Source of the DNA: an uncultured Bacilli bacterium
GTDB lineage: Bacteria; Bacillota_I; Bacilli_A; RF39; UBA660
Reading direction: 5' to 3'
Assembly (NCBI GenBank): GCA_944332005.1
Contig: CALVJD010000047.1
Span: 1 to 36,851 of the forward strand
DNA length: 36,851 nt
Position numbers and translations under genes: made by a program. Of this stretch, positions 340 to 23,591 are shown piece after piece. The notes below the pieces were generated by a model. It ran no database searches. It was not told the DNA's origin and worked only from the letters and a program-made list of their open reading frames with translations. The number at the start of each line of letters is the position of its first letter. The first letter of the stretch is position 1.

Positions 340-383
340 GTGTATGATAAAAGAATAGAAAGAACGGGTAGGTGTTTTTTGCA

Positions 384-2291
384 ATGAAGAAATCTCTATT
401 TTTTCAGCCTTTTATAATGGTCTACCATATGGTGCGTTTCTTGATTAGAATACCTATCATGTTGCTTCGATATTTTTCTTTAGGTATTTTCTTTACTTTA
501 TATACGGTCATTGATCTTTTTGTTAGTATCATTTGGATTTTAGGTAAGTATGTTGGATTGGGAGTTAGAGCTGTTCTCTACTTTCTCTTACATATTTTAA
601 AATATGCAGGGAAAGGCTTTATCGTATTATCAAGAATTTGTTATCACTTTTTACATTATGCATTATTTGGCATTTCCGTTCCTTTTATCTTCATTTACAA
701 TCTATATGCTCGTCATGCTGAAAAAGCTGCTATAAAAGCTTTAGCACGTCGTGAAAAAGAGGAAAAATTAAAAGAGATACGTCGTCTTGAAAAAGAGCGT
801 CAACTAGCGGAAAAAAAGGAAAGACAAAAACGAGAAAACGATGTTTATATCAATGAAAAAGTGAAAATAGAACGAAAAACGTTTGGTGATCGTATCAATG
901 ACTTTTTACTTGCTATGATTGCTTTTCCAAAGAAGATGGTTGCCGAGATTAAAAAGAAATATAATAATTCATCGTTTGTAAAAGCAAGACGCAATCGTAG
1001 AGATATCAACCGTAATGTTTTATTAATTGATTTTGATGGTGAAGATGCGGAGAAAAGCCCAACGAAATTACTATATGAATATGAAGCAAAAGATCCTGAT
1101 GGAAAAATAGTCAAGGGTTATTTTGAGGCTTATTCGAAAGTAGAAGTACATTCTTTTTTACTTTCAGAAGGATATGAAGTATATAGTATTAAAACAGATA
1201 AATGGATTCGTCTTTTACATCAAAGTTCTGCAACGAGTCATACGAGAGTTCGAACCAAAGATCTAATTTTCTTCCTGACTCAATTATCGACCTATATCAA
1301 AGCTGGTATCCCATTGGTTGAATCACTTAAAATTTTGTCTCGTCAATTTAAGTCAAAGGCATATCAACGTATTTTTAAATTGATGATTTACGATCTTACG
1401 ATGGGAGAAAATTTTAGTACGGCGATGGAAAAACAAGGAAAAGCTTTTCCAGCTTTGCTCATTAACATGATCAAGACATCAGAAATGACAGGATCTCTAC
1501 CAGAAGTCTTAGATGATATGGCAGAGTACTATACAGAGATGGATAAAACGCGTAAAGAGATGATTACCGCTATGACTTATCCTTCGATCGTTTTAGTTGT
1601 AGCAATTGCCGTTGTTACTTTCATTATGATTTATGTTATTCCGCAGTTTGTCGAAATATATGAAAGTATGGATTCTGCACAGATTCCTTCCATTACGATT
1701 GCCATTATGAATTTGAGTGACTTCTTACAACATAATTTATGGTTAGTAATTCTTATTGCGGCACTTGTAATTGGTGTATTTGCTTATTTATATCATAATG
1801 TTAAATTGATTCGAACAGCTACGCAATGGTTGCTGATGCATTTACCGATCTTTGGTAATATTATCATTTATAATGAAGTTACTACTTTTACCAAAACATT
1901 TTCATCTTTGTTGGAGCATAACGTGTTCATTACGGATAGTATGGATATCTTAAATAAAATTACGAATAATGAAATTTATAAAATGTTAATATTGGATACG
2001 ATTACTAATCTTGCTAAGGGGGAGAAGATATCGACGGCTTTCAAAAATCATTGGGCTTTTCCAGTGCCTGCTTATGAGATGTTAGTAACCGGAGAGAGAA
2101 CGGGAGAACTTCCGCAAATGATGAAGAAAGTATCCGAGTATTATCAAGATCTTCATAAGAATGCTGTTACTCGTGTTAAGACTTTCATCGAACCTGTTTT
2201 GATTTTATTCTTAACGGTTGTTGTCGGTATTATTGTTCTTTCGATCGTCATTCCAATGTTTAATATGTATACTACCATTCAAGAAGTATAG
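384..2291 (+). CDS. pilC: Type IV pilus / type II secretion platform protein (PilC/GspF) with extra N-terminal membrane and coiled-coil region
   Basis: This is the inner-membrane platform on which the PilB ATPase acts during pilin assembly. The conserved part begins near residue 230 (LLYEYEAKDPDGKIVKGYF, typical of the PilC N-terminal domain) and is followed by two T2SSF repeats at about 290-420 and 500-630, each ending in hydrophobic helices. Unusually, about 110 residues rich in aromatic transmembrane segments come first, then a charged Lys/Glu/Arg coiled coil (about 115-165). The protein is about 635 aa, against roughly 400 for the family. ATG 384 is preferred because AGGTG (370-374) sits nine bases ahead. 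An upstream in-frame GTG at 372 would add four residues but has no suitable ribosome binding site. pilD follows ten bases after the stop. Confidence 0.88.
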   Translation: MKKSLFFQPFIMVYHMVRFLIRIPIMLLRYFSLGIFFTLYTVIDLFVSIIWILGKYVGLGVRAVLYFLLHILKYAGKGFIVLSRICYHFLHYALFGISVPFIFIYNLYARHAEKAAIKALARREKEEKLKEIRRLEKERQLAEKKERQKRENDVYINEKVKIERKTFGDRINDFLLAMIAFPKKMVAEIKKKYNNSSFVKARRNRRDINRNVLLIDFDGEDAEKSPTKLLYEYEAKDPDGKIVKGYFEAYSKVEVHSFLLSEGYEVYSIKTDKWIRLLHQSSATSHTRVRTKDLIFFLTQLSTYIKAGIPLVESLKILSRQFKSKAYQRIFKLMIYDLTMGENFSTAMEKQGKAFPALLINMIKTSEMTGSLPEVLDDMAEYYTEMDKTRKEMITAMTYPSIVLVVAIAVVTFIMIYVIPQFVEIYESMDSAQIPSITIAIMNLSDFLQHNLWLVILIAALVIGVFAYLYHNVKLIRTATQWLLMHLPIFGNIIIYNEVTTFTKTFSSLLEHNVFITDSMDILNKITNNEIYKMLILDTITNLAKGEKISTAFKNHWAFPVPAYEMLVTGERTGELPQMMKKVSEYYQDLHKNAVTRVKTFIEPVLILFLTVVVGIIVLSIVIPMFNMYTTIQEV

Positions 2292-2301
2292 GGGGATTTT
2301 T

Positions 2302-3072
2302 ATGACAGTTTATTATACGATTGTTTTTTTCCTTTTCGGAACCGTTTTCGGTTCCTTTTACAATGTAGTAGGGGATCGTTTGCCACGAGGGGAATCGATT
2401 ATTTCTCCTCGCTCTCATTGCCCTAAATGTGGACATATTCTAACATCTTTAGAATTAATTCCTATTTTTTCTTTTTTGTTACAAAAAGGGAAATGTAAGA
2501 ATTGTAAAGCACCAATTCCTTGGTTTCATCCTGTTTTTGAAATAGCCAGTGGTACTTTATTTGCGCTTTCTTATTTGGCGTTTGGTCTTAATTGGGAATT
2601 ATTGATTGCGTTAACCTTTGTATCGATGCTTTTAATCATCTTTGTAAGTGACATAGAAACGATGATTATTCCTGACGAAGTATTAGTGGTATTTGGTATT
2701 TTGTTGCTAATTGAAATTTATGTTATTCGTGGTGGAGATGCATTCATATTGTCACTCGGCAGTGGTGTGATTTCCTTTATCACGATGTTTCTATTGAAGA
2801 AATTTGGCGATTTTCTATTTAAAAAGGAATCGATGGGTGGCGGAGACATTAAACTACTGGGTATCTTTGGTATCGTACTCGGCTGGCCACTTGCGATTAT
2901 TTCTATCTTTTTAGGATCGATAATTGGGTTACCGATTGCGATTATGACACTAAAAAAAGAAAGCAATCATGAGATTCCTTTTGGTCCTTTCTTAAGCTTA
3001 GGAGCAATTATTTTACTCCTCAGTCGTATTGATATGAAGATGATTTTAGATTTACTAACTTGGAATAGATGA
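2302..3072 (+). CDS. pilD: Prepilin peptidase / N-methyltransferase (PilD, A24 family)
   Basis: This membrane aspartic peptidase cleaves class III signal peptides of prepilins and N-methylates the new N-terminus. Seen in the 256-aa sequence are an N-terminal membrane segment, a cytoplasmic zinc-binding loop with two CxxC pairs (CPKCG and CKNC, about residues 40-75), and the two catalytic aspartate sites: SDIETMIIPD (first Asp) and the GGGDIK signature (second Asp). Several further membrane helices follow. ATG 2302 is chosen because GGGGG (2291-2295) lies just upstream; an extended frame from 2218 would overlap the end of pilC without need. It is co-transcribed with pilC. The substrates are probably the two pilins encoded at 4.5-6.1 kb. 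Confidence 0.93.
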   Translation: MTVYYTIVFFLFGTVFGSFYNVVGDRLPRGESIISPRSHCPKCGHILTSLELIPIFSFLLQKGKCKNCKAPIPWFHPVFEIASGTLFALSYLAFGLNWELLIALTFVSMLLIIFVSDIETMIIPDEVLVVFGILLLIEIYVIRGGDAFILSLGSGVISFITMFLLKKFGDFLFKKESMGGGDIKLLGIFGIVLGWPLAIISIFLGSIIGLPIAIMTLKKESNHEIPFGPFLSLGAIILLLSRIDMKMILDLLTWNR

Positions 3073-3115: not shown

Positions 3116-4438
3116 TTAATCAACTGGTCCTATAATGGGTTTAGGATCGAGAGGTTTTGGTTCTAATCCTTGATTCTGTTCTTGAGCTTGTTTTGCAATA
3201 TCGGTCATTTTTAAGGCCTCTTTTAAATCCAACTTTCCCTCGATGATATTTTCATCGTCGTCTAATTCGATCAATTTTAGAACTTCTTCAAATGTCGTAT
3301 ATCCATCGATTACTTTTTGCAGTCCATCTTGAAGTAGTGTTGTTACATCGGAACGATAGACAAGTTCACGTAGTTTTTCTTTTGGTAAGTTATTACTGAT
3401 GGCATCACGAATTTCTTGATTGATGAGAAGGACTTCTTGAATCGCGATACGTCCGTGATAACCATTTCCGCACACTTCGCAACCTTCGGCTGTATAAACT
3501 TCATCAACAGAATGGCCAATAACTTGTTTTAAAAGATTTTTTTCATAATCGTTGGTTTTACGTTTCGTACGGCAATGAGGACATAACATACGAGCTAATT
3601 TTTGAGAAATAATACCCGTTAATGCGCTGGATAATAAGTAACGTTCTACATCCATATCTAAAAGACGTTCGATCGTATTTAGAGAGTTATTGGTATGGAT
3701 CGTCGATAATACTAAGTGTCCTGTAATAGAAGCACGAACAGCGATTTTAGCTGTTTCGGTATCACGAATTTCTCCAATCATGATGATGTTTGGGTCTTGA
3801 CGTAAAATCGAACGAAGGGCAGTTGCGAACGTAAGTCCAATTTCACTATTGGTTTGCACCTGATTGATTCCTTCGATATCCATTTCAATCGGGTCTTCAA
3901 CCGTGATAATATTAGTTTCTTCTTTATTTAAACGCTGCAAAATCGAGTAGACGGTCGTTGATTTACCAGTACCAGTCGCACCCGTAACAAGCACGATTCC
4001 ATTTGGAACAGAAATCATCTTTAACACTTTTTGATAGTTGACATCGCTGAATCCTAATTCTTCGATACCCGATAAACTCATCGTATAGTCCAAAATACGA
4101 ATGACGATCTTTTCTCCTTGACTAGTAGGTAAGCAAGAGACACGAAGATCGAGATTAGTACCTTGAAGAGTCGCCTTGATCGCACCATCTTGTGGTAGAC
4201 GTGTTTCGGTGATATTCATATTAGAAATAATCTTGATACGCGTGATTAAATTCTTTTTAATCGTGTTAGGAACTTCTGCATAGTCAATTAAAACTCCATC
4301 GATACGAATTCTAATTTTCATAAATTTTTCTAATGGATCAAAGTGAATATCACTCGCACCACGTTTTGATGCATCGACCATAATATCGTTGACAATTTCG
4401 ACAACCGGCATCTTTTCAAAATCAAATACTCTTAGCAT
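3116..4438 (-). CDS. pilB: Type IV pilus assembly ATPase (PilB/GspE/ComGA family)
   Basis: Hexameric secretion ATPase that powers pilin insertion. The 440-aa protein lacks the long N-terminal T2SSE_N module of classical PilB and begins directly at the N2-like domain (RGASDIHFDP near residue 30), so it is closer to ComGA in build. Visible motifs are Walker A GATGTGKST (about 151-159), the Walker B-type IIMIGEIRDTETA (about 215-227), the His-box region HTNNSLNTIERLL, and a tetracysteine zinc motif CPHC...CEVCGNGYHGR (about 286-328). A roughly 35-residue polar tail ends in PKPIIGPVD. ATG 4438 has GGGG nine bases ahead; ATG 4447 directly abuts those Gs and is less likely. It is transcribed away from the pilins. 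Confidence 0.93.
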   Translation of the reverse strand: MLRVFDFEKMPVVEIVNDIMVDASKRGASDIHFDPLEKFMKIRIRIDGVLIDYAEVPNTIKKNLITRIKIISNMNITETRLPQDGAIKATLQGTNLDLRVSCLPTSQGEKIVIRILDYTMSLSGIEELGFSDVNYQKVLKMISVPNGIVLVTGATGTGKSTTVYSILQRLNKEETNIITVEDPIEMDIEGINQVQTNSEIGLTFATALRSILRQDPNIIMIGEIRDTETAKIAVRASITGHLVLSTIHTNNSLNTIERLLDMDVERYLLSSALTGIISQKLARMLCPHCRTKRKTNDYEKNLLKQVIGHSVDEVYTAEGCEVCGNGYHGRIAIQEVLLINQEIRDAISNNLPKEKLRELVYRSDVTTLLQDGLQKVIDGYTTFEEVLKLIELDDDENIIEGKLDLKEALKMTDIAKQAQEQNQGLEPKPLDPKPIIGPVD

Positions 4439-4463
4439 AATATTCATCCCCTTTTATTCATTT

Positions 4464-4535: not shown

Positions 4536-5585
4536 ATGAAAAAAAATCAAAATAAAGGTTTTATGTTAGCAGAAACCTTAATTGCTGCGACCTTTATTTT
4601 AGGGACGTTAGTTTTCTTATATATTCAATTTCGTAATGTCAATCAAGGTTATCAAACTTTGTTTACATATAACACTGTAGATGCTTTATATGCAGCTGAG
4701 AATATGAAAAAATTTTATCTTCAAGATAATTTTGATGAAATAGCCGCATCTTTCCGTAGTAATATGAATCGTTATCTCGATTTATCGGAATGTCCTGCTT
4801 CTTATATTGGGGAGTCAGAATATTGCCAGAAATTAATGGATATTTTGGGAATTAAAACCGTTATATTTGCGGATGTAGATACGAATTATTTAGTCGATGT
4901 TTTGGATACGACGGATATTTCTCCTAGTTTACAAAAATTTATTCGGTATGTGAAAAATGATGAAGAAGGGGTATTATTAAAGTATCGTATTTTTATCGAA
5001 ATGGATGATGGAACATTCGCAACTGCAAAATTAGGAGAGGCGAAACCACAACCATATTTCGTACATAATTTGTTTCAAGATGGTGATTTTGAACAATCCG
5101 GCTGGAGTCCTATCTACATTGAGGAAGCAGGCTACAGTACCGATTATGCACTACATGGCAATTATTCGATGAAGGTAAATGGCGTTGCCTCTAAAGTAGA
5201 AGTGGTGTTTTATACCACTCATACAATTTCCTTAGTTCCTACTCATCTTTATTATGCGAGAATAGGAGTATATAAAACAAATCCGGCCAATACAGCAATC
5301 GATATGTACTGGCCAGAAGCAGAACCTTCTTTATTGAATGGGGTAGTGAATAAAACAAATGAGTGGCAAATGATTTCGATGTTGAGCAATCGTTCTACAT
5401 TTAATGCCGTTTCATCCGCACTACGTCTGGATTATAACAATGAATATCAAGCGACGCCGATTTATTTTGATGGAGCTTTATTAATTGATTTAACAGCTGA
5501 TTTCGGAGCTGGAAAAGAGCCATCGAAAGAGTGGTGCGATGAGAATATTCCTTTCTTTAATGGCGAATATCAAGTGGAAAGGTGA
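4536..5585 (+). CDS. Type IV (pseudo)pilin with C-terminal lectin/adhesin-like domain
   Basis: The N-terminus MKKNQNKGF|MLAETL is a class III prepilin signal: a short basic leader, Gly-Phe cleavage site, Glu at +5 of the mature protein and a hydrophobic helix (about residues 9-32). After a pilin-like region to about 170, the C-terminal half (about 175-345) looks like a beta-sandwich module: NLFQDGDFEQSGW, YALHGNYSMKVNG, then WQMISMLS and LRLDYNN. It ends in LIDLTADFGAGKEPSKEWCD, close to a motif I know from phage tail-fibre and carbohydrate-binding-like proteins. The length of 349 aa is far above an ordinary minor pilin. AGGGG precedes the ATG. Five bases separate its stop from the next pilin. 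A pilus-tip adhesin is a sensible inference, not shown. Confidence 0.8.
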   Translation: MKKNQNKGFMLAETLIAATFILGTLVFLYIQFRNVNQGYQTLFTYNTVDALYAAENMKKFYLQDNFDEIAASFRSNMNRYLDLSECPASYIGESEYCQKLMDILGIKTVIFADVDTNYLVDVLDTTDISPSLQKFIRYVKNDEEGVLLKYRIFIEMDDGTFATAKLGEAKPQPYFVHNLFQDGDFEQSGWSPIYIEEAGYSTDYALHGNYSMKVNGVASKVEVVFYTTHTISLVPTHLYYARIGVYKTNPANTAIDMYWPEAEPSLLNGVVNKTNEWQMISMLSNRSTFNAVSSALRLDYNNEYQATPIYFDGALLIDLTADFGAGKEPSKEWCDENIPFFNGEYQVER

Positions 5586-22315: not shown

Positions 22316-22362
22316 ACTAGTCTGCTTTTTGTATGTTAAAATTTAATAAAGGAGATAAGAAT

Positions 22363-22734
22363 ATGGGACGACCAATAGGAACAAATAATATTATGAGAAC
22401 ACCAGAAGAAAAAGAAAAAATTGTTAAGGAATATTTAAATGGTGAAAGTGCAACAAAATTGAATAAAAAATATAATTTATCCAACAAAATAATATACAGA
22501 TGGCTTTATAAATATAATCAATCTGGAATAGAAGGTTTAAAATCAAACACAGGAAAACATAAAAATTCAAATGCTGGATTACATTTAAGAAAACCAAAAA
22601 GTAAGATTGAAGAATTAGAATTGGAAATATTAAAGAAAGATATTGAGATTGCTCGATTAAAAAAAGGTTATATGGTGAAAGGAGTTGGGGCCGAAAAGGA
22701 ATACGTTACTACATTCGAGAAGAATATAAAATAA
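22363..22734 (+). CDS. IS3-family OrfA (DNA-binding)
   Basis: The 123-aa protein has an N-terminal helix-turn-helix (TPEEKEKIVKEYLNGES then KLNKKYNLSNKIIYRWLYKY, about 13-50) that binds the terminal repeats, and a coiled-coil/leucine-zipper segment (KIEELELEILKKDIEIARLKK, cut here to its ends I77 and K100) for dimerisation. ATG 22363 has AAAGGAG ahead. Near the end of the zipper an A7 run (22659-22665) lets ribosomes shift -1 into orfB, giving the OrfAB transposase; without the shift translation ends at 22734. Confidence 0.9.
   Translation: MGRPIGTNNIMRTPEEKEKIVKEYLNGESATKLNKKYNLSNKIIYRWLYKYNQSGIEGLKSNTGKHKNSNAGLHLRKPKSKIEELELEILKKDIEIARLKKGYMVKGVGAEKEYVTTFEKNIK
22659..22665 (+). other. Programmed -1 frameshift site (A AAA AAA G)
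   Basis: Seven A in the orfA phase TTA-AAA-AAA-GGT form an X-XXY-YYZ heptamer. After slippage the -1 frame is open without a stop into orfB. AAAGGAG (22678-22684) lies just downstream. Confidence 0.65.
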
Positions 22735-22781
22735 TAGATGAATATAAAGATAAATATTCAATCCAATTACTATGTAAATAT

Positions 22782-23591
22782 ATGTCTGTGAGTAGATCTG
22801 GATATTATAAATGGAAATATAGACAAGATCATCCGACAGATAAAATGTTATCAAGACAAACAGATATAAATTTGATAAAAGAAATACACAAAAAACATCC
22901 ATCGCATGGATACAGATGGATAAATGCTTATGCCAGATTACATTATGGAATAGTTTGGTCTGATAATCATGTCCATTTATGTTGTAAATATGAAGGAATA
23001 AGATCTAATGGGAAACATTATCAATGGAAGAAACCTGATGAAGAACACGAAAAATTTAATAATTTAGTATGGAACGGATGGAAGTATTTATCAAGGCCAT
23101 TTGAAGTAATAGTGTCAGATATGACATCTTTTTGGGTAAAGAATATATATTATGAATTAACACTATATTTTGATGCTTGGAACAAAGAAATAGTTGGTTA
23201 TGGATTAGCCTCTAGAAAAGGTGCAATTCATTCATATTATGATGGTTTAAATCAAGTATTAACACGTATAAAAAAAGAACAAACTGATGATTTGATTATT
23301 CTCCACACAGATCAAGGTTCAGTTTATTCATCTAAAGCTTATAACAAGCTTCTAGAAAATTATAACATAGAACGTTCAATGAGTCGAGCAGGCACACCTA
23401 CTGATAATCCTGTAAATGAATCATTGAACGGATGGATTAAAGAAGAATTAATTATTGATTTTGATTTAAAACATTGCGAGGATGTTCCAAAACTTATTGA
23501 ACAATATATATATTATTACAATAATGAGAGGCCTGCATATTCATTACAATATAAAACCCCAATTCAATATAAATTTGAATCAGGGTTCTAA
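22782..23591 (+). CDS. IS3-family OrfB transposase (DDE integrase)
   Basis: Catalytic half of the transposase. The HTH_21-like region (KKHPSHGYRWINAYARLHYG, about residues 37-57) is followed by the rve integrase core with the complete DDE triad: Asp113 (VSDMTSFW), Asp177 (LHTDQGSVY) and Glu213 (NESLNGWIKEE), with 35 residues between the last two as expected for IS3. The C-terminal YYNNERPAYSLQYKTPIQY block is also typical. The frame is open upstream of this ATG as far as the A7 slippery site, so most product is probably the OrfAB fusion. The ATG at 22782 has no good ribosome binding site. Confidence 0.93.
   Translation: MSVSRSGYYKWKYRQDHPTDKMLSRQTDINLIKEIHKKHPSHGYRWINAYARLHYGIVWSDNHVHLCCKYEGIRSNGKHYQWKKPDEEHEKFNNLVWNGWKYLSRPFEVIVSDMTSFWVKNIYYELTLYFDAWNKEIVGYGLASRKGAIHSYYDGLNQVLTRIKKEQTDDLIILHTDQGSVYSSKAYNKLLENYNIERSMSRAGTPTDNPVNESLNGWIKEELIIDFDLKHCEDVPKLIEQYIYYYNNERPAYSLQYKTPIQYKFESGF

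Follow-up and report, generated by a model that had tools for sequence, protein, structure and literature searches.

The gene at the centre of this study, pilin A, encodes a modular type IV pilin that carries a carbohydrate-binding-type beta-sandwich, here called module D, behind a minor-pilin subunit. It lies in a 36,851-nucleotide stretch of DNA (the window) from an uncultured Bacilli bacterium of the GTDB lineage RF39; UBA660 (assembly GCA_944332005.1, contig CALVJD010000047.1). The orthologous pilin of a sister species lacks the module, relatives of the module occur on phage tail proteins and on other surface proteins, and the same site in related genomes has been refitted repeatedly with different modules. 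We consider it likely that pilin A is a minor pilin whose module binds glycans and is displayed, probably at the pilus tip, for attachment in the gut.

Pilin A and its pilus locus

The features of the locus are collected in Table 1. The preliminary description had recognized a class III prepilin N-terminus on a 349-residue protein, and the sequence bears this out. The N-terminus reads MKKNQNKG/FMLAETLIAATFILGTLVFLYIQF, with the signal in the form KG/FMLAE. Gly-8 stands at position -1, Phe-9 opens the mature protein, which starts FMLAETLIAATFILG, and Glu-13 occupies position +5, with a hydrophobic stretch after it. Pfam N_methyl, searched at E<=1, gave no reported match for pilin A. In an AlphaFold2 model of the full-length protein, a helix spans residues 5-40 and the pilin head, for which few homologues were supplied, has low confidence, as against high confidence for module D.

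Table 1. Features of the pilus locus in the window (positions in nucleotides)
Feature	Position	Strand	Basis and remarks
Platform protein, PilC/GspF type	372..2291	+	T2SSF in two stretches, from residue 301; far above Pfam cut-off
Prepilin peptidase (A24)	2218..3072	+	A24_N_bact and Peptidase_A24, far above Pfam cut-offs
PilB/GspE-type assembly ATPase	3116..4447	-	T2SSE, E 5e-126, far above Pfam cut-off
Pilin A, modular prepilin	4536..5585	+	349 aa; open reading frame and translation; orthologue in G001 is a bare 169-aa pilin
Class III leader peptide of pilin A, MKKNQNKG	4536..4559	+	Predicted cut before F9
Pilin core, mature residues 9-167	4560..5036	+	Homologous to family pilins at the same locus
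Linker and grafted module D, residues 168-349	5037..5582	+	Profile match 177-344; absent from G001; fold and relatives; GC
Tail motif of module D, DLTADFGAGKEPSKEWCD, residues 318-335	5487..5540	+	Conserved in D of pilins, surface proteins and phage proteins
Pilin B, bare, 166 aa	5590..6090	+	N_methyl just above cut-off

The assembly ATPase gene gives the only T2SSE match of the PilB/GspE kind in the genome. The two other T2SSE matches sit in loci that, judged from sequence, are Tad-like, one at C9 (L301; TadE-like and CpaE/CpaF-like) and one at C72 (L302; CpaB-, CpaF- and TadB-like). The real start of the prepilin peptidase is probably near position 2302. About 300 residues precede the first T2SSF domain of the platform protein, comprising several hydrophobic segments and then a long charged stretch; this extension is also found in the sister genome and is longer in G036. 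Pilin B adjoins pilin A in nearly all relatives and often carries modules itself. Downstream in the window, SpoIVB and SpoIIM genes exceed curated cut-offs, which fits the proposal that the organism is a spore former. An IS3-family insertion sequence lies at 22333-23591 on the plus strand, with two open reading frames, the second above its curated cut-off.

Module D is an insertion relative to the sister genome

In G001, a genome of the same genus, the orthologue of pilin A lies between the same neighbours, is 66% identical over residues 1-166 and stops at 169 residues. Because the same gene in the same place has only this length in the sister genome, residues ~168-349 of pilin A represent an added module. 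Aligned at the DNA level, the window's additional ~540 bases form an insertion, with collinearity returning at the start of pilin B, and no copy of module D was found anywhere in the G001 genome. The module has a GC content of 38.5% and the pilin part one of 30.5%. Pieces of the window as long as the module have 32.0 +/- 3.4%, and the module falls at their 98th percentile. These sequence comparisons lead us to favour a recent gain of D in the window's lineage over its loss in G001, because of this composition, the absence of D throughout G001 and its scattered distribution, all of which disfavour loss; counts of changes alone cannot decide between the two. That the second half is simply the head of a large ordinary pilin is ruled out, with orthologous pilins lacking the domain and the domain also occurring without any pilin. 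Of the features by which Raynaud et al. (2021) describe modular type IV pilins, pilin A shows a class III prepilin signal and an extra domain that is not specific to pili, D being present on phage tail and non-pilin surface proteins and absent from orthologous pilins.

Fold and relatives of module D

AlphaFold2 models module D with high confidence (mean pLDDT 91.2, pTM 0.88): a beta-sandwich comes first, and behind it two short helices contain the DLTADFGAGKEPSKEWCD motif. The preliminary description had proposed from the letters alone that the second half is a beta-sandwich and that its tail motif, LTADFGAGKEPSKEWCD, which we locate at residues 319-335, is of a kind seen in phage tail-fibre and carbohydrate-binding-like modules. 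Structure prediction and fold searching agree with both proposals, showing a sandwich of the carbohydrate-binding module (CBM) type and not a pilin head, and the motif recurs in phage tail proteins. Among solved structures, Foldseek placed a CBM16-1 at the top (2zew, E 8.5e-8), followed by a porphyran-binding CBM, CBM4 and CBM22, which assigns D to the fold class of CBM16/CBM4-9. Likewise, a profile built from 12 D sequences matches CBM16 chains across the whole sandwich (E 6e-6). Pfam CBM_4_9 (PF02018) was reached only below its cut-off (14.9 bits against 25.9), so D is CBM-like and not a formal family member. D resembles CBM16 and CBM4-9 (2zew, 2zex; PF02018) in its beta-sandwich fold and full-length profile match. 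Identity is only 15-18%, D has an added C-terminal DLTxxFGxGNEP segment with the two short helices, and its carrier is no enzyme. NCBIfam NTTRR-F1 matched six of 12 D domains weakly (best 1.4e-5) and the window's not at all; we set it aside, the evidence for CBM16 being stronger. A literature search for the DLTxxFGxGNEP motif returned no matching paper.

The window's subfamily of D comprises 13 rows, among them L196 from a viral contig and L110 from a Christensenella MAG. Its invariant residues include Y258, W259, P260, E263, P264, R286, R297, D299 and N302. Judging by their conservation, these may form the binding site.

Relatives of the tail motif outside pilins, which the preliminary description had made a test of its proposal, proved abundant, with phage tail proteins among them. 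A tblastn search with the whole of pilin A against named phages and plasmids found nothing, and PHROGs contains no family for D itself; relatives of D surfaced only via alignments, motif patterns or structure. Among viral structure models, D comes closest to a siphovirus protein (TM 0.91, 34% identity); two myovirus proteins come next (27-29%). The DNA pattern for DLTxxFGxGNEP is present in at least 120 viral stretches. Among the viral matches listed, the motif lies in frame in 119 open reading frames, and 71 of these can be aligned to the D profile across more than 120 positions. Four of ten motif-bearing viral proteins tested are recognizable tail proteins, among them the Dit of L212 and the minor tail proteins of L157 and L140. 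The carrier on L196 is not known as a tail protein, because the only product that PHROGs named among its neighbours was a radical SAM protein. One viral contig (L217, 2603-7255) encodes a 1550-residue tail protein that combines D with a Gly-rich start resembling, by eye, the ALK_LTK_GRD module of the pilins; from this example, phages may share more than one module with the pilins.

Domains of the CBM16 fold have been reported in Bacillus phage baseplates, as have 'evolved' Dit proteins with added carbohydrate-binding modules (PMC10688798, PMC11406892). The likeness to pilin A is that of a binding module on a structural carrier, with D itself on Dit and minor tail proteins. The carrier there is a phage tail, compared to a pilus here, and the modules of lactococcal Dit are compared with D here by their arrangement on the carrier.

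A search for further class III-signal proteins bearing D was also productive. D occurs on pilin A of G122, alongside a copy that lacks it. In L114, the syntenic locus has D on pilin B (436 residues) and a Gly-rich module on pilin A. Further class III pilins bearing D are encoded in G126, G346 and G263. It is also found on prepilin-like proteins that lack Glu at +5 ('KGFI..S.LYS') and on surface proteins with a signal peptide ('TYAYLS'). A tree of 60 D domains puts the copies on class III pilins, six in all, in six places, and well-supported branches force at least five changes, indicating that D was grafted onto class III pilins in at least five separate events. The window's D has its closest kin among surface proteins that are not pilins, from other genera of the same family. 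Six loci (L037, L039, L040, L042, L043, L045) encode prepilin-like proteins with a C-terminal D and 'KGF(A/I)..S..YS' N-termini lacking Glu at +5, which may constitute a separate pilin-like or anchored class. At one of them, in G083 (L042, 1-18001), a cluster of pilin-like genes encoding up to 1438 residues surrounds the D-bearing gene.

Repeated refitting of the two-pilin locus

Matches to the pilin A protein, mostly to its pilin part, were found in 133 of the 193 genomes of the family, most of which are MAGs. Our module census covers the 50 best-matching genomes (51 loci), which are not a random draw. Within it, pilin A is extended at 13 of the 51 loci and pilin B at 23 of 47 countable loci, with no significant linkage between the two; modules outside Pfam were counted by length alone, and pilin A of G075, which ends at a contig end, was scored as bare. 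The modules identified on pilin A are Laminin_G_3 (a concanavalin-like lectin), the glycine-rich ALK_LTK_GRD, DUF6273 and DUF7507/DUF11, and those identified on pilin B are Bact_surface_Ig-like together with ALK_LTK_GRD, and Fib_succ_major. On a tree of the pilin A core, the bare and extended states switch at least 10 times, and six of these switches are forced by well-supported branches. The clade of the window has four rows, in which pilin A carries D (the window), nothing (G001), DUF7507/DUF11 repeats (G063) and a further extension that ends at a contig end (G121). Apart from the initial finding itself, our strongest result is that this one site has been refitted repeatedly. Pilin A is duplicated in some genomes, with a D-bearing and a bare copy in tandem in G122 (L046, 2191-3722) and two extended copies beside pilin B in G084 (L083, 3-5857).

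Prepilins are not confined to this locus. The window's own genome (G000, 1.1 Mb) encodes ~18 further, dispersed prepilins, for example at L283, L285, L289 and L293; many are 500-864 residues long, and one has DUF285/BspA-type repeats. Ten relatives have 7-29 N_methyl prepilins each. The dispersed prepilins look like a genome-wide display repertoire.

Proposed function and alternatives

We propose that residues 1-~167 of pilin A would act as an ordinary minor-pilin subunit, which the prepilin peptidase encoded nearby would process and the ATPase and platform protein of the same locus would polymerize. The last ~180 residues, module D, would then be exposed as a carbohydrate-binding-type beta-sandwich outside the pilus. 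Pilin B is a likely partner of pilin A, and by analogy with Streptococcus sanguinis a tip complex of the two could present D, through which the cell would hold on to a glycan in the gut. The module would have been acquired ready-made from a pool on which phage tail proteins and further surface proteins also draw. Across the family, the two-pilin site has been refitted with different modules again and again. Beta-sandwiches of the CBM-type class also serve as protein-binding domains or spacers.

The main rival is a competence (DNA-uptake) pilus or pseudopilus, in which D would bind DNA or the cell's own envelope, or act as a spacer, rather than bind an outside glycan. It is suggested by comEA/comEC-like genes in the neighbourhood of the locus in relatives (~5-13 kb away in G001, G036 and G121). 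Each of the seven genomes tested, including the window's, has ComEC, and pilin B has a weak match to ComGE. However, the ComG equivalog models failed, with 265 bits against a required 300 for ComGA, 22.8 against 49 for ComGE and no match for pilin A. Moreover, binding-type modules vary among near relatives, which a constant ligand such as DNA would not call for. Variable adhesin-type modules fit attachment better, and we regard a role in competence as unlikely.

We give somewhat less credence still to the idea that pilin A stays outside any filament and that its prepilin signal only anchors D as a surface membrane protein. The many dispersed prepilins of this genome and its relatives lend it some weight, given that all of them entering one pilus is improbable; unlike these, pilins A and B remain, throughout the family, next to the genes for the ATPase, platform protein and peptidase. 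An assembly artefact joining a pilin gene to unrelated, possibly phage, sequence is highly improbable: the source is a MAG of 83 contigs and the composition of D is unusual for the window, but the reading frame is open through the junction, pilin B begins 4 bases past the stop, where collinear sister sequence resumes, separate fusions of D to pilins exist in the five other genomes and loci named above, and many further assemblies also have an extension at this site.

Relation to known modular pilins and significance

The architecture of pilin A is not in itself new. Modular pilins form a well-recognized class, for which InterPro lists more than 1,200 members and 264 architectures (PMC8179133), and the lectin-type module of S. 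sanguinis PilC binds glycans (PMC9934059). The S. sanguinis modular pilins PilB and PilC (PMC8179133, PMC9934059) are the best precedent, as class III pilins of a Gram-positive bacterium with a bulky C-terminal binding module and a short pilin as neighbour or partner. A lectin-type module (Laminin_G_3, concanavalin-like) even recurs on pilin A of some of the relatives studied here. Unlike in S. sanguinis, the module of the window is CBM16/CBM4-like, lies formally outside Pfam and also occurs on phage tails; in addition, modules vary or are missing among near relatives at one locus, and both adjacent pilins take them. CofB, a large minor pilin of enterotoxigenic Escherichia coli (PMC8179133), similarly has a pilin module followed by beta-rich C-terminal domains and is thought to be located at the tip, but it belongs to a type IVb pilus of a diderm, and the comparison drawn here is one of architecture. 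So far as the literature we searched extends, the new elements are the family to which D belongs, the fact that phage tail proteins share it, and its gain and loss between near relatives at a conserved two-pilin locus.

Modular pilins have been known mainly through architecture surveys and from single species. Orthologous pilins that occur at one locus without a module, with D, or with unrelated modules make the acquisition of binding specificities by pili directly testable. The presence of D on both phage tail proteins and pili points to a common pool of receptor-binding parts, and the DLTxxFGxGNEP signature of this uncatalogued family can be used to find binding proteins of pili and phages. 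More tentatively, and with somewhat less than even confidence, we speculate that the two minor-pilin genes are a natural site of module exchange, at which small-genome gut Bacilli refit the pilus tip with binding modules from a pool that phage tails and surface proteins use as well. A new grip could arise in this way between sister species, and the combination of a class III signal with a swappable module may be used genome-wide, with 7-29 prepilins in genomes of ~1 Mb. Since related bacteria carry another domain, or none, at the same spot, our findings suggest that the tip of the pilus is a changeable gripping tool.
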